DNA of 64,000 bases from Anaerohalosphaera lusitana (GTDB taxonomy: Bacteria > Planctomycetota > Phycisphaerae > Sedimentisphaerales > Anaerohalosphaeraceae), in the NCBI RefSeq assembly GCF_002007645.1, contig NZ_CP019791.1, forward strand, positions 744,001-808,000. Reading direction: 5' to 3'. The translations under genes and the position numbers were made by a program. Numbering within the stretch: the stretch's first letter is position 1; each line of letters begins with the position of its first letter. The notes below the pieces were generated by a model. It saw only the letters and a program-made list of their open reading frames with translations, had not been told where the DNA came from and did no database searches. This document shows positions 28,600 to 40,253 of this stretch, piece by piece.

Positions 28600-29148
28600 A
28601 TGGACAATCCGAAGACCAAACTTGAGATAAGCGAGCTTTCGTTTTCACTGTATCAGCGGTCTCTGCATCCGGAGCTTTTCAATATCTATTCTAAGCGCCA
28701 GATCAGGACCGAGAACTACGACGCCCAGATCTGGGCGACTGGTTGTTCGCACGTAGTTTCAGCTTATCACAAGGGTATGTGTCTTTCGGAGCTTATCAGC
28801 ATGCCCGGCCAGCCGCTTCCCAAGAGGGGCCTGGTTGAGAGGTTCCAGTTCCGCGGCCAGAAGAATCATCGCTGCAGGCTCAGCAAGGGCGTCAGCTACA
28901 TGACCGATTTCCAGGTCGAGAAAATGAGCCCGAATCTTTACAGGCAGAGCCATATCGATCTGGAAAGATTCGCAAAAAACCGCGGCATCTTCGTGAAGTT
29001 CCCGGAAATGAGCAGTTCAGGGCTCGAGCCGTTCAGCTACATAGATTTTGAGGCCCGCAAAACGGAACTGCATATTCACGCGTTCCACGCATACCCGGAT
29101 CAGGTAACGATCATAAAAACACAATCGCTTGTTGGATTTTACGACTGA
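28600..29148 (+). CDS. DUF2617-like protein
   Basis: 182 residues, soluble, no signal peptide. The N-terminal segment SFSLYQRSLHPELFNIYS and ATGCSHVVSAYHKG are what I remember of DUF2617, a family seen in Planctomycetes and Actinobacteria without known function. The C-terminal part has several His residues (ELHIHAFHAYP). ATG 28600 is used; the frame runs 15 codons further upstream but those overlap the leader. Monocistronic, with a promoter, a candidate operator and a terminator. Confidence 0.6.
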   Translation: MDNPKTKLEISELSFSLYQRSLHPELFNIYSKRQIRTENYDAQIWATGCSHVVSAYHKGMCLSELISMPGQPLPKRGLVERFQFRGQKNHRCRLSKGVSYMTDFQVEKMSPNLYRQSHIDLERFAKNRGIFVKFPEMSSSGLEPFSYIDFEARKTELHIHAFHAYPDQVTIIKTQSLVGFYD

Positions 29149-29181
29149 TATTGCGGTAAAAAAGTCTAATCCAGAAAAAAT

Positions 29182-29213
29182 AAGGGTGCGGCCGAATGCG
29201 TCGCGCCTTTTTC
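29182..29213. terminator. Bidirectional stem-loop terminator
   Basis: AAGGGTGCG pairs with CGCGCCTTT (two G-U pairs) over an 11-base loop. T residues follow on the plus strand and TATTTTTTC on the minus strand. It lies between the DUF2617-like gene and the convergent dockerin-like gene. Confidence 0.65.
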
Positions 29214-29257
29214 TATGCGCGTTTTAGCAAAGTCACCTGTTTTCAATCCCTTGATCT

Positions 29258-30208
29258 TCACGGAGCGGTGGTCTTTGGCTTTTCGCCTGAAAGCCAGTTG
29301 TCCTGTATGATCTGCAAATCGTTGGGATCTACGACGTCGTCGCCGTCAATATCTCCTTCGAGGTCGGCGATGATGCTTCCATCGTCTGTCATCTCCCAGG
29401 GGCAGTCATTGGGGTCGGGCAGATTATTGGGGTCCGTACAGTCGCACAGCCACTGGTCGGCTACGATCGCGTAGTCCTGCAGATCGACATAGCAGTCAAA
29501 ATTGAGGTCGCCCTCGAATGGCGCCTGACAGAGCTGCAGCGCATCCACGGCCAGATAGCTTCTGTACCACTTGTCCTGTATGTCTGTGACGGAGATTTCG
29601 AGTTCGTAGCTGCCGGCCGTCTCTTCTGTGAAAATATGACTGAATCTCTGCCAGCCCTGCATCGAGCCGTAGGTGCCAACGTCGACTGTAGTATCGTAGT
29701 CTTCAGCTTCGGGCAGTTCGCTTACGTCCAGGCCTGCAAGAAGCACGCCTGTGCTGTAATTTGGGTCCCCCTCCTTTTTGAGGATTATATGAGCCTGGTC
29801 GGAATAGGGCTCAAAATCGAACGTGCCGAAAAAGAACCAGCCCTGGAGTGTCTGACCGGGCAGGGCCTCTATTTGCTGAGAGACTTTCGCCTGGCTTACG
29901 TCGGGTTCAACGTCGCCTGTGGACAAAAGCAGGAATTTTTCGCCATCCAAGGGCTGGAGGCCGACCTCAAAGTACTTATCGGGCCAGTTGATCGCAGACT
30001 CGTTCCTCTGGTTAGGATTTGGGATGAATTCTTCGACTACCGCTGCGTAGTTTTCATGCTCCCAGGATAGGGGAGGGTAGAAGTCGGGTACAGAGTTGGG
30101 TTCGGCCGTTAGTTCGAAACTGCCGTTTTCCAGACCCGCAATCGTCGCGGATGCACACACCAACCACACCAGAATAATGAACAGGCTCGCACGCCTAGTG
30201 CAAATCAT
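29258..30208 (-). CDS. Secreted protein with C-terminal dockerin-like modules
   Basis: 316 residues. The signal peptide is basic then hydrophobic (ICTRRASLFIILVWLVC). The middle, residues about 25-215, starts LENGSFELT and looks like a jelly-roll domain of the kind found in planctomycete secreted proteins (carbohydrate-binding-like). The C-terminus carries two dockerin-like calcium loops, GDLNFDCYVDLQDYAIVADQW and GDIDGDDVVDPNDLQIIQDNW, separated by a Cys/Pro/Asp-rich linker. ATG 30208 is chosen because the promoter at 30248-30276 would start transcription downstream of the other in-frame ATG (30247). Ligand unknown. Confidence 0.75.
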   Translation of the reverse strand: MICTRRASLFIILVWLVCASATIAGLENGSFELTAEPNSVPDFYPPLSWEHENYAAVVEEFIPNPNQRNESAINWPDKYFEVGLQPLDGEKFLLLSTGDVEPDVSQAKVSQQIEALPGQTLQGWFFFGTFDFEPYSDQAHIILKKEGDPNYSTGVLLAGLDVSELPEAEDYDTTVDVGTYGSMQGWQRFSHIFTEETAGSYELEISVTDIQDKWYRSYLAVDALQLCQAPFEGDLNFDCYVDLQDYAIVADQWLCDCTDPNNLPDPNDCPWEMTDDGSIIADLEGDIDGDDVVDPNDLQIIQDNWLSGEKPKTTAP

Positions 30209-30247
30209 TAAATACCAATCTGCCCCAATCAGAAACCATTTTCCCAT

Positions 30248-30276
30248 ATGATATATCTAATTGTCCTAAAAGTCAA
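30248..30276 (-). promoter_or_regulatory. Promoter of the dockerin-like protein gene
   Basis: On the minus strand TTGACT, 17 bp spacer, TATCAT. Confidence 0.65.
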
Positions 30277-30581
30277 GGTGGTCGTTTAGATCATGATATC
30301 AAGTGCATCGGAATCGCTGTTCTTGAGTGTTTTATGCATTCTTTTGCGTGTGGTTTTTGCAGTCAGGGCAAGGTTTTTAGTATTCGAATATGGGACGTGG
30401 AAGTATTGGCGAAAAATTCTGCAAACAAAATTTTGTCGCCGGAGTACTTAATTACGGCCCGGCAAAACAGGGTTAATCCTAAGTAGGAATCTTTCTTGTT
30501 TGAGGCAGACGATCTGTTTCCGCAGGAAGCCTTGGGATCTGTTGTTTATTTTTTCCTATTTATTCCTGGAAAGGGGCAAAA
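30277..30581. other. Intergenic region with an orphan hairpin
   Basis: No ORF with a ribosome site. The main structure is an 11-bp stem with one bulged G: GGCGAAAAATT (30408-30418) pairs with AATTTTGTCGCC (30429-30440) over a 10-base loop. Both flanking genes are transcribed away from it, so it is not their terminator. A short inverted repeat TCCTA-AG-TAGGA lies at 30477-30488. No clear promoter for the downstream small gene is seen. Confidence 0.4.
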
Positions 30582-30839
30582 ATGGAAAAGCACGTATTTG
30601 ACATGAAGCTTAGAGAATTGGTTGCGGAAATGGGCAGTTTTGCCAAAAAGCAGGGAAAATGCTCTGAAATTCTTGCTCGAAACACACACAGATCCAAGAA
30701 TCTAGCGGGATCAAAAGAGTCGGTTCAGGATTCCCTTCATAATCTGACAATCGGGGTTAAGTATTTGCTGTTTGATCTTGAAGCGACCAAAAGGGAAAAT
30801 GAGTACCTGAAAAAAATAATCGAAAATTCCGAGTCATAA
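30582..30839 (+). CDS. Small hypothetical protein, 85 residues
   Basis: Soluble, basic and mainly helical; the last 35 residues (YLLFDLEATKRENEYLKKII) look like a short coiled coil. The ribosome site AAAGGGG is well placed and a strong terminator follows the stop, so it is very probably real. No family recognised. It stands between the dockerin-like gene and clpC with its own terminator. Confidence 0.65.
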   Translation: MEKHVFDMKLRELVAEMGSFAKKQGKCSEILARNTHRSKNLAGSKESVQDSLHNLTIGVKYLLFDLEATKRENEYLKKIIENSES

Positions 30840-30864
30840 AACTTCCAGCGTTTTTGTCAATTCA

Positions 30865-30893
30865 GCGGGGCCTTTCCGGGCCTCGCTTTTTTT
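30865..30893 (+). terminator. Terminator of the 85-residue protein gene
   Basis: GCGGGGCC pairs with GGCCTCGC (one G-U) over a 6-base loop, followed by seven T residues. Confidence 0.8.
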
Positions 30894-31155
30894 GTGCGCA
30901 ATCCTAATTTAACTGACATCTGCCAAAGTTCAGTAATCATTATGACGATAGAACTTGTATGAAATTGATTGCCCACGCAGTCAGGCAAAAGGCGGACGAA
31001 CAAAATCGGAGTTAGAGCATATTATTATTGGCCAGTTCGGATAAGAAAGTCAAAGCTGGCGATGTCACAGTTGACAGTGTGCCGAACGCGGTTAGAATTC
31101 AAAGTTAGAGCACAAAGCGATATTACACAACAGATCATAAATTACGAGGAACAAG
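30894..31155. other. Upstream region of clpC
   Basis: Contains the clpC promoter near its end. I looked for a CIRCE element (TTAGCACTC-N9-GAGTGCTAA) or a CtsR-like direct repeat and did not see either. An open frame at 30969 has no ribosome site and is ignored. Confidence 0.4.
31071..31098 (+). promoter_or_regulatory. Promoter of clpC
   Basis: TTGACA, 16 bp spacer, TAGAAT; about 57 bases before the ATG. It is a near-consensus housekeeping promoter. Confidence 0.7.
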
Positions 31156-33669
31156 ATGTTTGAACGCTTTACAGACCGTGCCAGGAAGGTGATGGCGTTA
31201 GCTAATCAGGAGGCTCAGCGGTTCAATCACGAATATATCGGAACCGAGCACATTCTTCTTGGTCTGGTAAAAGAAGGCAGCGGCGTCGGTGCCAACGTCC
31301 TTAAGAATCTTGACGTTGACATCAAGAAGCTGCGTCTGGAAATAGAAAAGCTCGTAAAGAGCGGACCGGATATGGTTACGATGGGCAAACTGCCTCAGAC
31401 TCCCCGTGCCAAGAAGGTGATCGAGTACGCGATCGAAGAGGCCCGCGCACTGAACCATAATTACGTGGGAACCGAGCACATACTGCTTGGTTTGCTGCGT
31501 GAAACAGAGGGCATCGCTGCACAGGTACTAATGAACCTCGGTCTCAAGCTCGAGAACGTCCGGCAGGAAGTCTTGAACCTGCTCGGAGCCGGTGTCGATA
31601 CGAGCTATCAGAATATGGGAATGAAAATGGGCCAGAAAGGCGCACAGAAACAGAAAAGCAAGACGCCCGCGCTTGACAGTTTCGGCAGGGACCTGTCGGA
31701 GCTTGCTGCCGAGGGCGAGCTCGATCCGGTTATCGGCAGGCAGAACGAGATCGAGAGACTCGTTCAGATCCTCTGCCGGCGAACGAAGAATAACCCGGTA
31801 CTGCTCGGCGAAGCCGGCGTAGGTAAGACCGCGATCGTTGAAGGTCTTGCTCAGCGCGTCGTCAGCAAGGAAGTGCCGGAGATATTGAAAGAAAAACGCC
31901 TCGTGGTTCTCGACCTCGCGATGATGGTTGCCGGTACGAAGTATCGCGGCCAGTTCGAGGAAAGGATCAAGGCTGTTATCAACGAGGTCCGCAGGGCGGG
32001 CAACGTGATACTGTTTATCGATGAGCTGCACACGCTGGTCGGTGCAGGCGGTGCCGAGGGAGCTATCGATGCTTCCAACGTACTAAAGCCCGCTCTGGCT
32101 CGCGGCGAGGTTCAGTGCATCGGTGCGACGACGTTCGATGAGTACCGCAAGCACATCGAAAAAGATGCCGCCCTCGAGCGAAGATTCCAGACGATCGCGG
32201 TAGAACCGCCCAACAAGGAAGAAGCGGTCGAGATCCTCAAGGGTCTGCGTGATCGCTACCAGGAGCACCACAAGGTCAAGTTCAGCGATGAGGCTCTGCA
32301 GCAGGCTGTCGAGCTTTCTACGAGATATATCACGGGCAGATGTCTGCCTGACAAAGCGATCGATGTTATCGACGAGGCAGGCGCACGTGTCAGGCTCAAG
32401 AACATGACCCCGCCGCCGGACCTTGCAGATATCGAGGCAAAGATCGAGGAACTGCAGGAAGAAAAGGATCTCGCTGTCCGCAACGCTGATTACGAACGTG
32501 CGGCTTCTCTGCGCGATGAGGCTCAAAAGGCCGCCGAAGAGAAAGAACGCATACAGCGCGAATGGGCACAAAAGAATGAAGAAGAGGCCGGCGAAGTGGA
32601 CACAGAGGTTATCGCTGAAGTCGTCAGCAAGATGACCGGCGTCCCCCTGACCCGTATCGAAAAGCAGGAAGCACAGCGTCTGCTCGAACTCGAAAAAGAG
32701 CTGCATAAGACAGTCGTATCTCAGGACGAAGCGATCAAGACGGTTTCCAAGGCCATCCGTAGGGCGCGTAGCGGCCTGAAGGATCCGAACCGTCCGGTGG
32801 GCAGCTTCCTGTTTATCGGCCCCAGCGGTGTCGGTAAGACGCTGCTCGCGCGAGCGCTGGCTGAGTTCATGTTCGGCGATCCGGATGCAATGATCCAGAT
32901 CGACATGAGTGAATACATGGAGAAGCACAACGTCAGCCGACTGGTCGGTGCCCCTCCCGGATACGTCGGTTACGAAGAAGGCGGCCAGCTCACCGAACGC
33001 ATCCGCAGACGGCCATACGCGGTACTGCTGCTCGACGAGATCGAAAAGGCGCATACCGACGTTTACAACATGCTGCTGCAGATCATGGAAGAAGGCCGAC
33101 TCACCGACAGCTTCGGCAGACAGGTCGACTTCCGCAACGTCATCCTGATCATGACAAGTAATATCGGTGCGGACCTGATCAAGAACCAGTCCGGTTTTGG
33201 TTTCGGCAAGCGTACCGAGGAAGCGAACTTCGAAAAAATGAAGCAGCTTCTCGACAAAGAGATCGAAAAGTTCTTCAGGCCCGAGTTCATCAACAGGCTC
33301 GACGCCAGGATCGTGTTCCAGGGTCTTACAAGGGACGACCTTGTCACCATCGTGGACTACGAGCTGAACAAGGTTCTGCGTCGTCTCATCGAGCACGGCC
33401 TGCACCTCGACCTTGACGATGCTGCTAAGGACTTCCTGATCGACAAGGGCTATAACCCCGAATTCGGTGCACGTCCACTGCGTCGAGCGATCGAGCGGTA
33501 CATCGAGGATCCGCTCAGCGAAGCGATGCTCCGCGGCGAGTTCAAGGGCAAGAGCCTGATCAAGATCAGCGTTCAGGACGAGGACAACCTCAAGTTCGAG
33601 GGACTGTCCGATCCTGACATCGCAACCAATGAAGACGTAGTGGTTCACTCGCAGGGCGAAGAAGAATAG
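31156..33669 (+). CDS. clpC: ATP-dependent Clp protease ATP-binding subunit ClpC
   Basis: AAA+ unfoldase that feeds substrates to ClpP. 837 residues, typical. Two N-terminal Clp repeats (residues 1-145, each with [11 protein letters not shown] or [11 protein letters not shown]), first ATPase module with Walker A GEAGVGKT (218-225), a UVR-type middle segment ([15 protein letters not shown], around 440) that separates ClpC from ClpA, second Walker A GPSGVGKT, and the C-terminal D2-small domain. GAGGAAC precedes the ATG. clpP, mcsA and mcsB are not nearby. It is monocistronic with its own promoter and terminator. Confidence 0.97.
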
Positions 33670-33690
33670 TCCCGCTGATCACACAAATAC

Positions 33691-33724
33691 AAAGGGCGGT
33701 CGTTCTCGAACGATCGCCCTTTTT
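33691..33724. terminator. Bidirectional terminator after clpC
   Basis: AAAGGGCGGTCGTTC pairs with GAACGATCGCCCTTT (one mismatch or G-U) and is followed by T residues. It separates clpC from the convergent RNase HI-PurN gene. Confidence 0.8.
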
Positions 33725-33754
33725 CAATGCTTGTAAATTGTGATGGGTGAAGGA

Positions 33755-34861
33755 TTAGAACAGGTTCGCCTGGCCCCTCGGTTTCCGGCTGGCGGAGGCT
33801 TCTTCGATGAACACCTTGCCGTCACGTATGCTCAGACGATCTTCGCTGAACAGCCGGATCGCTTCGGGGTATGCGATGCATTCTTCCGCGAACACCCGTG
33901 ACGCGAGCTTCTCCGGTGTGTCATCAGGCTTCGCAGGGCAGCACCGCTGAATGACGATCGGCCCTTCGTCGTATTCGTTCGTGCAGAAGTGCACCGTACA
34001 CCCGCTCACCTTGCACCCGCGATCCAGCACTGCCTGATGAACGTGGTTGCCCCACATCCCCTTGCCGCCGAAGCTCGGCAGCAGCGAAGGATGAATATTC
34101 ATCACCCGGCTGTCATACTTATCTGGTATCTTCCACAGGCACAGCCAGCCAGCCTGGACGATCAGATCGACTCGATTCTCGTCCATTATCTCGACCAGCC
34201 GATCGCTGAATGCGTCCAGATCGGGCAAATCTTTCTTGCGTACGATCTCCAGCTTATGGCCGAGCTTCCTGGTCAGCTCGACGCCTTTGATCTTTGCACG
34301 CGAGCAAACCGCCACAGCAATCTCGGCATTGAGCTTGCCAGCTTTTATCTGCTTATCAATATTTTCCATCGTCCGACCGCCCCCGCTGATCAGCACCCCC
34401 AGGCGGAGCTTTTTGCCTTTGGGCTCAGCGGGCACATCGCCTTCGATCTCCACGTCAGCCCTTGCGTCCATCGCTTGATTCGCAAGTGCATCGGCTTCTT
34501 TGTTGTTCTCGCGATAGACGTGCGAAACTTCCCAGCTCGCAAAACTGTCCAGCAGCTCGACGCACTGCTTGTAGATGCTCTTGAGGTTCGGGCTCTTTAC
34601 CTTGTAAATGCCGTTGAGCTGCTTGGTCATAAGCTCGCTGTCGGTGAAGACCTGCACGTTCTCGAAATTCATTTCGCTTGCCGTGCGAAGTGCTTCGAGC
34701 ATGCCGGTGTATTCGGCAACATTATTCGTGGTCTTGCCCAGGTAGACACCTCGGCCGAGGATCAGATTGCCCTCACTGTCATAAAGTGCATAACCGCTGC
34801 CGCCCGGGCCCGGATTGCCCCGGCTCCCGCCGTCGGTGTATATGGTGATCTGGTTAGACAA
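33755..34861 (-). CDS. RNase HI - phosphoribosylglycinamide formyltransferase (PurN) fusion
   Basis: A single chain joining two unrelated enzymes. Numbering from the upstream ATG 34885, residues 13-140 are RNase HI: YTDGGSRGNPGPGG with Asp18, Glu58 in NNVAEYTG, Asp82 in FTDSEL, Asp132 in NNKEADALANQ. After a linker (about 141-158) residues 159-370 are a PurN-type formyltransferase: LGVLISGGGRT, Asn253 and His255 in MNIHPSLLPSF, Asp296 in EYDEGPIV, matching the catalytic Asn-His-Asp of PurN, with about five extra residues (GGKGMWG) between. The best ribosome site (GGGGAG, 8 bases) points to TTG 34861; ATG 34885 has none. The zinc-ribbon gene lies 79 bases upstream on the same strand, a neighbourhood also seen for RNase HI in mycobacteria. 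Both active sites look intact. Confidence 0.88.
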   Translation of the reverse strand: MSNQITIYTDGGSRGNPGPGGSGYALYDSEGNLILGRGVYLGKTTNNVAEYTGMLEALRTASEMNFENVQVFTDSELMTKQLNGIYKVKSPNLKSIYKQCVELLDSFASWEVSHVYRENNKEADALANQAMDARADVEIEGDVPAEPKGKKLRLGVLISGGGRTMENIDKQIKAGKLNAEIAVAVCSRAKIKGVELTRKLGHKLEIVRKKDLPDLDAFSDRLVEIMDENRVDLIVQAGWLCLWKIPDKYDSRVMNIHPSLLPSFGGKGMWGNHVHQAVLDRGCKVSGCTVHFCTNEYDEGPIVIQRCCPAKPDDTPEKLASRVFAEECIAYPEAIRLFSEDRLSIRDGKVFIEEASASRKPRGQANLF

Positions 34862-34940
34862 TTGGAAATCTCCCCGGTTTAGCATCCCTGCAAACTATTG
34901 ACTGCAGCAGGGGCTGGATCTGTCTACGGAAATAATCTTA

Positions 34941-35666
34941 TCAGGAATGATACACGAGGATACGGGTGCAGTTCGAACACCGGATGATCTCATCTTTGGT
35001 CATCAACTGATTGACCACCTCCGCCGGGATCCGCATATAACAGCCGCTGCAGTTGAATGAAGTGCTTTTGTCGCCCTGATCTTCTACTTCCGCGATCGCT
35101 TCGCCGTCATAAGTTTCCGCCACGCGCTTGAATATCTCCAGAGCGTTCGGCGCGATGTCCTTAGCGGCTTCGTCCCACTCCTTCTGGATCTCTTCGATCT
35201 GCTCTTCGTACTTGGAAGCCTCCGCCTCAGACTCCTTCCGCATGTTATCGACGACTTCCTTCTGCTCCTCGATCTGCTGCTGTATTTCCTCGCACGCCGC
35301 TTTGTCCGTGTCGATATTTCCCATCAGCTCCAGAACCTGCGCCTCGATCTTGGAATTGTCAGCCTTGGAAGTGTTCAGTTCGGTTAGGATAGACGCGTAC
35401 TCTTTGTTGGTCTTTGCGGTGTTGAGGGCCGCGCGGTACTTGGCGATATGGTCATCGCGGTGCTTCATCTCGAGCTCCAGCCTGTCGGCCTGGACCTGGG
35501 TCATTTTGATCTCTTCCTTTTTGGCAGCCAGTTCGCTCTTAAGCGCCCTGAGCTTGTTTTCCTGGAAGATGACGCGTCTTCTGCACCTGGTCAATTTGGA
35601 TTTTACGGCGCGAAGGCGATTTTCCACACTCTGCAGTGCCATCAACCCTTGAAGTACTGGTCCCAT
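34941..35666 (-). CDS. C4-type zinc-ribbon coiled-coil protein (PF02591/DUF164 family)
   Basis: 241 residues: a long antiparallel coiled coil (about residues 10-170) and a C-terminal zinc ribbon with CSGC and CSNC. This is the architecture of the broadly conserved DUF164/zf-RING_7 proteins, such as Mycobacterium Rv2229c and Helicobacter HP0958, with suggested roles in nucleic acid or RNA handling. AAGGAG precedes the ATG. It is followed by the RNase HI fusion gene, which repeats the mycobacterial association of this family with RNase HI. Confidence 0.85.
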   Translation of the reverse strand: MGPVLQGLMALQSVENRLRAVKSKLTRCRRRVIFQENKLRALKSELAAKKEEIKMTQVQADRLELEMKHRDDHIAKYRAALNTAKTNKEYASILTELNTSKADNSKIEAQVLELMGNIDTDKAACEEIQQQIEEQKEVVDNMRKESEAEASKYEEQIEEIQKEWDEAAKDIAPNALEIFKRVAETYDGEAIAEVEDQGDKSTSFNCSGCYMRIPAEVVNQLMTKDEIIRCSNCTRILVYHS

Positions 35667-35796
35667 TAAAGCTCCTTTATTTACTTTTTACACCCGACTA
35701 AATTATCAGTTTCCTATTATGTTTAAAAGGAGGCGTTCTTCAACAAAAATCCTTTTGTTTTTCGTTACCGTCCCATCCAGCAGCGCAGGGAATAGT

Positions 35797-35824
35797 TTGA
35801 AATCTGAGTTTATGCCACTATAAT
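35797..35824 (+). promoter_or_regulatory. Promoter of the OPT transporter gene
   Basis: TTGAAA, 16 bp spacer, TATAAT; about 81 bases of leader before the GTG start. Confidence 0.65.
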
Positions 35825-35911
35825 CGCATGCCATGATGTTGCTTTCCGGCCCACTTGGGTCTCATCGGAGAGTGTGTGAGTTGATCGAACCAATTTCGGA
35901 AGGGAATTAAG

Positions 35912-37840
35912 GTGGACAATAACAAGGGCTTAGCGGAACTTACGATCAAAGCAATTGTTCTCGGTGTGCTTCTTTCAGTCGTTCTCGCCTCGGCGAACGC
36001 ATACCTGGGACTGTTCGCGGGTATGACCGTTTCGGCGTCGATCCCCGCAGCGGTGATGTCGATGGGCATACTTCGTCTGTTCAAAAAGAGCAACATACTG
36101 GAAAACAACATCGTCCAGACAGCGGCCTCAGCAGGCGAATCCCTGGTTGCAGGTGTCATTTTCACCCTGCCAGCCCTAATTATTATGGGCTTCTGGGAGG
36201 ATTTCAGTTTTATATGGGTAACGATAATTGCAGGGTTCGGCGGCATTTTGGGTGTGCTTTTCACCATCCCATTGCGTCGCTCACTGATCGTCGAGGCTGA
36301 TCTAAAGTTTCCGGAAGGTATCGCTACTGCTGAAGTACTCGAGACCGGTCAGAAGGGCCACGGCATCAAGCACCTTGTTCAGACTGCCTGTGCCGGAGGC
36401 ATCTTTAAGCTGGGAGCCGATTTTTTAGGGCTCTGGGGTGCCAAGTTCGAAGTGGCAAGAAGGATCGGCGGTTCTGTGGCCTATTTAAGTTCGAGTTTGA
36501 GTCCAGCCCTGTTTTCGGTGGGCTTTATTGTCGGTCTAAATATTGCGATTCTTATTTTCCTTGGCGGTGCGGCAAACTGGTTCATCGCAATACCTGCTTA
36601 TCTCGGCTTTGTGGACTGGCCCGTCCACGCCGATGGAACGGCTATGAACGCGGCGAAAGCAGCTAATGCTATATGGGAGACTAAGACCCGTTATCTGGGC
36701 GTTGGTGCAATGGTAGTCGGTGGTCTCTGGGCAGTGATCCAAATGCGCAATACTCTGGTAACCGGTATCATGAGCGGTCTGAAAGCATATAGAAGTGACG
36801 GCGGCAAAACCCAGGAAATGGACCGCCAGGAAAAAGACATGCCAATGAAAATAGTACTGATGATGATCATGTGCTCGATAGTACCGCTGTTTCTCGTTTA
36901 TCAGGTTTTCGTTGACGATGTCTCGGTTTCGCTGCCGATGGCGCTCGTAATGATTGGATGCGGATTTGTATTTTCTGCTGTGGCGGGTTATATGGCTGGC
37001 CTGGTAGGCTCGTCAAGTAATCCTATCTCGGGTGTGACGATCGCTACTGTACTGATCTCATCTTTGCTGTTGCTTTTACTTATGGGCAAATCCGCTGAGA
37101 AGGGCCCGCCTGCGGCCGTTATCATCGGTGCAGTTGTTGCATGTGCGGCTGCGATCGCGGGTGACAATATGCAGGACCTCAAGGCGGGTCGAATTGTCGG
37201 TGCAACACCCTGGAAGCAGCAGGTTATGCAGATGGTAGGCGTTGTGTCTTCGGCGCTTGTGATCGCTCCGGTACTTATACTGCTGCAGAATGCATATGGT
37301 TTTGCCGGTCAGCCCGATCTGCCGGCCGGCGTAGAAGGATTAGCTGCTCCTCAGGCAAACGTAATGGCCTCAGTTGCCAAGGGCGTTTTCGAGGGCGGTC
37401 TTCCGTGGAATTTCCTGTTCGCGGGAATGGTGATCGCCGTTGGGATCATTCTTTGTGATCTGTATCTGGCTAAGCTCAAGAGTGATTTCCGCATGCCTGT
37501 TCTGGCAGTGGCGATTGGTTTTTATCTGCCTTTGTATTTATCTGTACCTATTTTGCTTGGCGGGATCGTAAGCAAGGCAGTCAAAACCTGGCATCGCAAA
37601 AGAAAGAGCACTAAAGAACAGGTTGGTATCTCTGCCAGGAACGGACTGCTCATGGCTTCGGGTCTGATAACAGGCGAAGCACTTATGGGTATATTTTTGG
37701 CGATCCCGATCGTGATGCTCAAGGGCAAAAAGGATCTGCCGTTTGTTGACTACTTGTGGAGCCCTGTTACTGGAACCGTTCTGCTGCTCGGAATAGCATT
37801 CTGGGTTTATAAGGTTGCCACCGCCAAAGCTGCGAAGTAA
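35912..37840 (+). CDS. OPT family oligopeptide transporter
   Basis: Inner-membrane transporter of 642 residues with some 14-16 hydrophobic segments. The N-terminus (ASANAYLGLFAGMTVSASIPAAV) is the hallmark of the OPT family, and GSSSNPISGVTIAT is a conserved internal motif. Bacterial members take up oligopeptides or metal-peptide chelates by proton symport. GTG start with AAGGGA 7 bases upstream. The M20 peptidase gene begins 9 bases after its stop, suggesting that imported peptides may be cleaved by the partner, which is inference. Confidence 0.92.
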   Translation: MDNNKGLAELTIKAIVLGVLLSVVLASANAYLGLFAGMTVSASIPAAVMSMGILRLFKKSNILENNIVQTAASAGESLVAGVIFTLPALIIMGFWEDFSFIWVTIIAGFGGILGVLFTIPLRRSLIVEADLKFPEGIATAEVLETGQKGHGIKHLVQTACAGGIFKLGADFLGLWGAKFEVARRIGGSVAYLSSSLSPALFSVGFIVGLNIAILIFLGGAANWFIAIPAYLGFVDWPVHADGTAMNAAKAANAIWETKTRYLGVGAMVVGGLWAVIQMRNTLVTGIMSGLKAYRSDGGKTQEMDRQEKDMPMKIVLMMIMCSIVPLFLVYQVFVDDVSVSLPMALVMIGCGFVFSAVAGYMAGLVGSSSNPISGVTIATVLISSLLLLLLMGKSAEKGPPAAVIIGAVVACAAAIAGDNMQDLKAGRIVGATPWKQQVMQMVGVVSSALVIAPVLILLQNAYGFAGQPDLPAGVEGLAAPQANVMASVAKGVFEGGLPWNFLFAGMVIAVGIILCDLYLAKLKSDFRMPVLAVAIGFYLPLYLSVPILLGGIVSKAVKTWHRKRKSTKEQVGISARNGLLMASGLITGEALMGIFLAIPIVMLKGKKDLPFVDYLWSPVTGTVLLLGIAFWVYKVATAKAAK

Positions 37841-37849
37841 GGTGTAATC

Positions 37850-38965
37850 GTGAAAACATTGCTCAAACAACTTGTCATGGCCAGATCCACCGCCGATATA
37901 GGCGAACTCAGGGCCGCGAAGGTGCTGCGGGACTATCTAGAGCCGTTAGGGATCGACTGCGACGTCGACTGCTGGGACACCTGCCGGGCGAACTTTACCG
38001 CTCATCTCGGTTCCAACGGAGATCGGCCCGGCCTTCTGTTCGCCGGACATCTGGACGTGGTCCCGCCAGGCGATGCTGTCTGGTCGCACCCGCCGTTCGA
38101 GCCGGCGGAGGTCGAAGGCAAGATGTATGGACGCGGAACCGCGGACATGAAATCCGGACTGGCGGCAGTGGCGGCGGCGATCGCTGAGATCAAAAATGAA
38201 GACACTGAGCTGGCAGGCGACGTCATCTTCACCGCGACTGCTGACGAAGAGACCGGCAGTTACGGCATCAAGCGTTTCATCGAAAAGCGCACTCCGCATC
38301 TGTCACGCTTGCAGGGCATAGTCGTGCCCGAACCGACCGGCCTGGAAATCGTCACCGGTCATCGCGGCATACTCTGGCTGGAATTTCGCACCCACGGCAA
38401 AACCGCCCACGGCTCGATGCCCGAGCTGGGCGTCAATGCGATCACGCGAATGCTGCCGCTGCTCAACAAGCTCAACGGCTATGAACTGCCCGCCGATGAG
38501 GACCCGATGCTCGGCAGGTCCACGCTGAGCATCAACGAAATACACGGCGGCAAGGCGACCAACGTCGTGCCCGACGCATGTTCGCTCAAGATCGATATTC
38601 GCACTTTGCCCCAGCAAAGCCAGGAAGGACTCATCGAACATTTCCAGCAGATGGTCCGCAAGATCGGTGTCGAGCACGCGGACTTCGATGCGGATATCGA
38701 GGTGATCAAGTCTGTCGAGGCGCTGCTTACCGACAGCAACTGTGAATTCGTCAAGAGTTTAAGAAGGGCGACCGAAGGCAAGAAGCCCGGCATCGTCAGT
38801 TATACCACGGACGGACCGTGGCTTGCCGAGCTCGGTGTGCCGGTGGTGATATTCGGGCCGGGCGAACCCAGTGCATGTCATAAACCGGACGAATACGTCG
38901 AACTCGATCAGCTCGAACGGGCGAAGGATCATTATAAGGATCTGATACTGGAGTGTCTGGCGTAG
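37850..38965 (+). CDS. M20 family metallopeptidase (ArgE/DapE/ACY1 type)
   Basis: 371-residue zinc hydrolase of small peptides or N-acyl amino acids; cytoplasmic. The zinc and catalytic motifs are AGHLDVVPPGD, GRGTADMKSG and ADEETGSYG; the dimerisation domain begins near GHRGILWLEFRTHGKTAHGSMP, and a late His motif is GEPSACHKPDEYV. Its substrate is uncertain: DapE, ArgE or a dipeptidase are all possible, and the upstream OPT transporter favours peptides. GTG start with AAGGTG before it. The last 170 bases overlap the convergent DMT transporter gene on the opposite strand. Confidence 0.88.
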   Translation: MKTLLKQLVMARSTADIGELRAAKVLRDYLEPLGIDCDVDCWDTCRANFTAHLGSNGDRPGLLFAGHLDVVPPGDAVWSHPPFEPAEVEGKMYGRGTADMKSGLAAVAAAIAEIKNEDTELAGDVIFTATADEETGSYGIKRFIEKRTPHLSRLQGIVVPEPTGLEIVTGHRGILWLEFRTHGKTAHGSMPELGVNAITRMLPLLNKLNGYELPADEDPMLGRSTLSINEIHGGKATNVVPDACSLKIDIRTLPQQSQEGLIEHFQQMVRKIGVEHADFDADIEVIKSVEALLTDSNCEFVKSLRRATEGKKPGIVSYTTDGPWLAELGVPVVIFGPGEPSACHKPDEYVELDQLERAKDHYKDLILECLA

Positions 38966-39860
38966 AAGCTGGTGCTGGTTCGGCAGGCGGCTCCGCGTTT
39001 TGCTGTTTCGGCTGGAACGTCATCAGCACTATCGCCGCGATTGCGACCAGTATGCCGATCAGCGTAGACCTGCAGATCTTTTCGCGGAAGATAAGGATTG
39101 CCGCGACCGCGGACAGACTTATCACGCCCGCGTGATTGACGGGAAACACCACGATGCCGGGCAGTGACAGAAGTGCGAGCATCAAAAACAGACTGCTCAG
39201 CCCGTTGGGGATGCCCAGCGTCAGACCCAGGCCGATATCGCTCAAGCGGAACTCTTCCTTTTTCGCCAGTGCATACGTCCACGCGAACACAGCCGCCACC
39301 GCAAAGAGAATCGTTATAAACCCTTCCATCTGAAAGTCGCCGAAATTCTCTTTGAAGATCTTGAAGCTGACCGCGTTTATTCCCATGCACACGAACAGCA
39401 GCGTCAGTATCGTGCCCTCCCGCAGAGTCACATACTTGCTCGCCGATCCGTTTGAGGGTCTTGCCTGGCTGAAAAAATACATCGCCACCGCAGCCAGCGT
39501 TATACCCGCGATCTGAATAGCTGTCGGTATCTCCCGGTAAAAGAATATGCTCGTTACCATCGGCAGGATGATAGCGAGACGGCTGACCGCGACGGTCAAT
39601 GCCGCACCCACCGATGCTATCGAGGAGATCATCAGCGTAAAAGCGACGAAATAGGAAACGCCCGTAATCGCTGCAAGGCTGGTTGCCGAAAGTGACAGAG
39701 GCTCGAAACCCTTTATCTGCCAGAGTACGAAATTGATCAGGCTGGCGACGATGTAGTTGGATGCGATAAGTATTGTCCTGCTGCCGCGGCGCTGCGCCTG
39801 CAGCTTGAGGATCATAGCAACAGCGACCGAGCTGAGTATCTTCAGAAGGAGGGATATCAT
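38796..39860 (-). CDS. DMT/EamA family transporter with long C-terminal tail
   Basis: 354 residues with ten predicted membrane helices in two EamA repeats (SRLAIILPMVTSIFFYREIP and GVISLSAVAAILIFREKI each mark a repeat). The membrane part ends near LVAIAAIVLMTF; then comes an unusual hydrophilic tail of about 75 residues, first Pro/Ala/Glu-rich, later Arg-rich. The last 56 residues are antisense to the conserved C-terminus of the M20 peptidase, so the tail probably arose by loss of an earlier stop codon. It starts 12 bases after the Minf_1886-like gene. Substrate unknown. Confidence 0.82.
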   Translation of the reverse strand: MISLLLKILSSVAVAMILKLQAQRRGSRTILIASNYIVASLINFVLWQIKGFEPLSLSATSLAAITGVSYFVAFTLMISSIASVGAALTVAVSRLAIILPMVTSIFFYREIPTAIQIAGITLAAVAMYFFSQARPSNGSASKYVTLREGTILTLLFVCMGINAVSFKIFKENFGDFQMEGFITILFAVAAVFAWTYALAKKEEFRLSDIGLGLTLGIPNGLSSLFLMLALLSLPGIVVFPVNHAGVISLSAVAAILIFREKICRSTLIGILVAIAAIVLMTFQPKQQNAEPPAEPAPASTPDTPVSDPYNDPSPVRADRVRRIRPVYDMHWVRPARISPPAHRARQATVRPWYN

Positions 39861-39872
39861 GGCTTGAGCCCG

Positions 39873-40253
39873 CTATTGAGGTTCAAACCGGAACTCTTTT
39901 TCGAAGACCCGCTCAAAATCGAACACATCGTCAAAATCCTCGATGCGGTCCTCTTCCTGCGCACTCATCCAGTTATGACCGATCATCAGATACACGATCT
40001 CGCCGAAATCCCTGGTCGTATGCAGCCCCCACTGATTCAGCACCAGCTTGGCGAGCCTGCCCCATCTCTGCTGAGCGAGGTCACCCAGACCCCACGCCAG
40101 CTCCTGACCCGTAATATGCCGCGACTCGGTTTCGGGCAACTGGTCCTTCTTCAAATTAGCGACGGTCTGGCCGAGACCCTCATATATGAACTCCAGGGCC
40201 TTGGGATCGTACCTGCCGTCTTCTCTTGCGATTTGCTGAATGGTTTTTTTCAT
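39873..40253 (-). CDS. Minf_1886 family protein
   Basis: 126 residues, soluble. ITGQELAWGLGDLAQQRWG, VLNQWGLHTTRDFGEIVYLMI and the start KKTIQQIAREDGRYDPKALEF match the family TIGR04138, named after Methylacidiphilum Minf_1886 and found in Planctomycetes and Verrucomicrobia. Function unknown. I use ATG 40253; ATG 40283 with a weak AGGT site is possible. Between metG and the DMT gene in the long minus-strand operon. Confidence 0.8.
   Translation of the reverse strand: MKKTIQQIAREDGRYDPKALEFIYEGLGQTVANLKKDQLPETESRHITGQELAWGLGDLAQQRWGRLAKLVLNQWGLHTTRDFGEIVYLMIGHNWMSAQEEDRIEDFDDVFDFERVFEKEFRFEPQ

Follow-up and report, generated by a model that had tools for sequence, protein, structure and literature searches.

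Fusion of RNase HI to a metabolic enzyme has a precedent in the actinobacterial RNase HI-CobC proteins (Rv2228c, MSMEG_4305, SCO2299; PRK07238). In Mycobacterium, removal of CobC hardly alters growth or hybrids, the domains are separable and the linker is variable, and the authors favour drift (PMC7466739). The gene described here was analysed within a 64,000-nucleotide stretch of the Anaerohalosphaera lusitana chromosome (NZ_CP019791.1, positions 744,001 to 808,000; the window). It resembles RNase HI-CobC in its N-terminal RVT_3-type RNase HI (39% identity to 3hst), its C-terminal metabolic enzyme, its variable linker and an adjoining DUF164 gene, which lies next to RNase HI in Actinomycetota also. 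It differs in that the partner is PurN and not the CobC phosphatase, and in its separate origin in Planctomycetota. PRK07238 matches the fusion over the RNase H part only (130 against a 326-bit cut-off), and the C-terminus is Formyl_trans_N, with no CobC. The parallel drawn in the preliminary description, an RNase HI fusion beside a DUF164 gene, holds on the basis of gene order in Actinomycetota and the published work (PMC7466739).

The two halves also have described counterparts, which were compared using an AlphaFold2 model built on a 15-row alignment of the window and related loci, without the actinobacterial RNase HI rows. The model has two confident domains (pTM 0.62), the relative orientation of which is not to be trusted, and between them pLDDT is lowest, under 50, at residues 152-155. 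The RNase H domain shares the DEDD set and fold of RNase HI of the archaeal, LC11 and Halobacterium kind (PF13456), its closest solved structures being 4e19 (Halobacterium RNase H1; Foldseek TMt 0.93), LC11 3u3g and the Rv2228c N-domain 3hst; it differs from them in its PurN tail, whereas those proteins stand alone or have an N-terminal extension. As in PurN proteins of TIGR00639, the C-terminal domain is full-length, has the Asn-His-Asp set and folds on the GAR transformylases 3auf (TMt 0.90), 2ywr and 4zyv (Foldseek), but it is joined at its N-terminus to RNase HI. Judged from PDB names, GAR formyltransferase also lies within a fusion in eukaryotic trifunctional GART and other multidomain purine enzymes, but the partners in GART are steps of one pathway and RNase HI and PurN are not. 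No description of an RNase H-PurN fusion was found in the open-access literature; the architecture may be on record in domain databases. A metabolic enzyme attached to RNase HI is not new in itself; what is new is PurN as the partner, with the history set out below. The features of the locus, in window coordinates, are:

33755..34885, minus strand: RNase HI-PurN fusion gene, one open frame of 376 codons (376 aa), kept across the order
34466..34855, minus strand: RNase HI domain (RVT_3 type), residues 11-140 (Pfam)
34409..34465, minus strand: interdomain linker, residues 141-159, of a length that varies among relatives
33815..34408, minus strand: PurN domain, residues 160-357 (Pfam, NCBIfam, fold)
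34941..35666, minus strand: DUF164 protein gene (Zn_ribbon_9 and CT398-like coiled coil; Pfam), 55 bases upstream and co-directional

The Pfam and NCBIfam domains along these 376 codons bear out the earlier claim that RNase HI and PurN share one uninterrupted frame, and nearly the whole profile is covered in each of the two domains. RVT_3 matches residues 17-138 (1e-23) and RNase_H residues 11-139 (1.4e-14), followed by Formyl_trans_N at residues 161-343 (1.7e-33; all Pfam). The TIGR00639 PurN match spans residues 161-352 and profile positions 2-190 of 192, with 142.3 bits against a cut-off of 150.1; several fused relatives score above this cut-off. The RNase H residues D18, E58, D82 and D132 are at the positions first reported. 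The PurN Asn-His-Asp residues are likewise present, in N-I-H-P and D-x-G-P motifs, but the numbers originally given for them (253, 255 and 296) are ten too low, the true ones being N263, H265 and D306.

The DUF164 zinc-ribbon gene said to lie beside the fusion was confirmed by Pfam, and the two genes probably share an operon. Of the 97 distinct fusions, 95 have DUF164 immediately upstream in the same direction; the two exceptions are L028, with no DUF164 match within the 1.5 kb examined, and L084, at a contig end. On the other side of the gene, GGGCGGTCGTTCTCGAACGATCGCCCTTTTT at 33690-33730 of the window lies between clpC (31156-33669, plus strand) and the fusion gene (minus strand), and judged by eye it resembles a shared two-way terminator. 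An Rfam scan of 29000-40000 gave no match.

The protein is probably bifunctional, consisting of two independent enzymes fixed by a merger of neighbouring genes. INDEPENDENCE of the domains, with two independent enzymes in one chain, is the preferred reading because of the selection on both halves, the variable linker, the presence of the GGKGMWG loop in unfused PurN and the mycobacterial parallel; both activities, and the independence of the domains, are predictions. The N-terminal RNase HI would degrade RNA in RNA-DNA hybrids, a task for which the cell has no other RNase HI, and the C-terminal PurN would formylate glycinamide ribonucleotide with 10-formyl-tetrahydrofolate as the only such enzyme found. 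The joint gene would have arisen once, in the lineage that had already diverged from family f2, where purN may have landed behind an old DUF164-RNase HI pair and the frames were joined. A need for both halves would lead to selection on each that keeps the joint gene, and no traffic between the active sites would be required.

The joining is real and old. Elsewhere in the class, as in Actinomycetota, DUF164 precedes an RNase HI that lacks PurN, from which it follows that DUF164-RNase HI is the older gene pair; in Glaciihabitans (Actinomycetota) the order is Nif3-DUF164-RNase HI. In family f2, sister to all other families, the RNase HI behind DUF164 ends in a cupin domain and purN is on another contig. 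At six f2 loci (L058, L061, L062, L065, L067, L072) a cupin of about 100 aa replaces PurN (profile match to 3rns, E 6.9e-14). The PurN-only tree of the order had too little resolution to show where the fusion belongs, and a DUF164+PurN tree was used in its stead, in which the fused clade is separated from f2 with 100/100 support. Unfused members of family f3 fall in two places around the fused ones in this tree, which implies that f3 shed the RNase H half on two occasions; a single loss combined with a re-fusion would also explain the tree, though less simply.

In the three genomes without fused RNase HI, purN comes directly after DUF164. All three carry canonical RnhA (about 150 bits), which otherwise occurs in about 23 of some 146 genomes (Fisher p 0.005, ignoring kinship; about 0.03 if counted as two independent losses). 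Both lineages losing the fused RNase HI, in two loss events, have canonical RnhA, which points to the fused domain as the working RNase HI of the cell, dispensable only where another exists. Chance joining of adjacent genes is the most likely origin of the fusion, each half keeping its ordinary role. It lasts through most of the order and splits only by half-loss, so the joined state could be worth something; a fusion present as two separate genes was never seen among the loci examined.

Such a benefit is the substance of the foremost alternative, that the fusion is functional, with the C-terminal partner giving RNase HI dimerisation or a grip on the hybrid, or coupling hybrid removal to purine supply. 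On this view RNase HI would generally require some module at its C-terminus, and PurN, cupin, CobC and Cys-rich domains would be interchangeable ways of supplying it. The fusion is indeed very stable within the order, and DUF164-linked RNase HI bears varied C-termini elsewhere: the cupin in f2, Cys-rich tails in families f18, f22 and f13, and CobC in Actinomycetales (PMC7466739). However, several class members (L060, L063, L071, L080) have at the same locus an RNase HI of about 150-160 aa with no C-terminal partner, the linker varies widely in length and make-up, the PurN of f3 works without RNase H, and in vivo removal of CobC had almost no effect (PMC7466739), which together make this explanation unlikely. 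It is similarly doubtful that the C-terminal slot of DUF164-linked RNase HI is a dock for exchangeable modules that tune or oligomerise RNase H; if true, such docking would tie hybrid removal to metabolic state. A functional link between hybrid removal and purine synthesis is not supported, because PurN persisted through both losses of the RNase H half, RNase HI in f2 is joined to a cupin rather than to PurN, and the linkers vary and in one case contain an inserted palindrome. At other loci of class families outside f2, the same or like the present one (L059, L074, L078, L082), Cys-rich C-terminal additions of 80-150 aa have no Pfam match.

Among relatives the linker ranges from 16 to 61 aa and its composition is also variable. 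The linker of L076 (1890-2060) has a palindromic insert, a perfect inverted repeat of 23 bases that does not break the frame, and this insert reads partly as HGQDARATHGRDGRAAETPHG. The linker as a fixed interface was ruled out by the 16-61 aa range together with the inserted palindrome. The proposal that the GGKGMWG loop (residues 273-279, in the PurN domain) serves contact between the domains was not borne out, as unfused PurN of Planctomycetota and Bacteroidota share it; the unfused PurN of Riemerella columbina carries GGKGMWGNHVHQAV, a letter-for-letter match.

The possibility that the PurN or the RNase H half is an inactive passenger, for which the TIGR00639 score slightly under the cut-off could speak, is very improbable. 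The DEDD set is invariant in about 95 fusion sequences, as are N263, H265 and D306 in the fusions covering those positions. Across 12 pairs the RNase H half has a median dN/dS of 0.12 and the PurN half one of 0.08, and purifying selection acts on both. The genome, a single contig of 4.25 Mb that is 99.96% complete, also argues against a passenger, having no other PurN, PurT (over the cut-off) or RNase HI. It has three Formyl_trans_N matches, of which one, the fusion, is PurN; from gene context, the second is Fmt, beside def, and the third a sugar-type formyltransferase among glycosyltransferase and polysaccharide genes. A second purN that could make this copy non-enzymatic was looked for and none was found, so that objection fails and the fusion is the sole purN. 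No PurT reached the cut-off, and PurH is present; that no other candidate accompanies PurH supports the predicted GAR formyltransferase activity of the fusion. Apart from the fused domain the genome has no RVT_3 or PF00075 match, and no canonical RNase HI was found elsewhere in it. A divergent RNase HII-like gene is located at C1:4163130-4164092 (L173:1131-2093); its 320-aa protein starts VGIDEAGYGPILGPLVVS, has a weak, two-part PF01351 match and was found in 16 of 17 genomes tested.

An assembly or frameshift artefact that joined two genes, or chance, can be dismissed, as both domains are in one frame with no stop between them in all 107 loci that have both, from dozens of genera and independent assemblies including single-contig genomes. 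Counted by distinct loci, the one frame is kept in 97 of 97. A hand count puts the fusion in about 128 of the 161 species-representative genomes in the order: about 122 have full-length matches, and in six others both domains share a frame but the linker is longer or more diverged. Several more are cut by contig ends. Outside the order, no full-length fusion was present among the matches listed from 397 class and 392 phylum genomes, which are nearly all PurN-only and begin near residue 150-160. A named genome collection contained one full fusion, in the planctomycete MAG from MohnsGC08, and plasmid sequences gave no full-length match. The fusion marks one order.

This is a second, independent merger of DUF164-linked RNase HI with an unrelated metabolic enzyme, in this case the only PurN of the cell. 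One fusion, two half-losses and other partners elsewhere form natural replicates in which chance can be weighed against usefulness. For annotation, purN and RNase HI (rnhA) of the order lie in one gene, and a Rosetta-stone inference from the fusion to a link between the pathways would probably mislead. Two assemblies each have two full-length fusion genes, G437 (C19 and C50) and G404 (C346 and C428), representing either duplication or mixed bins.
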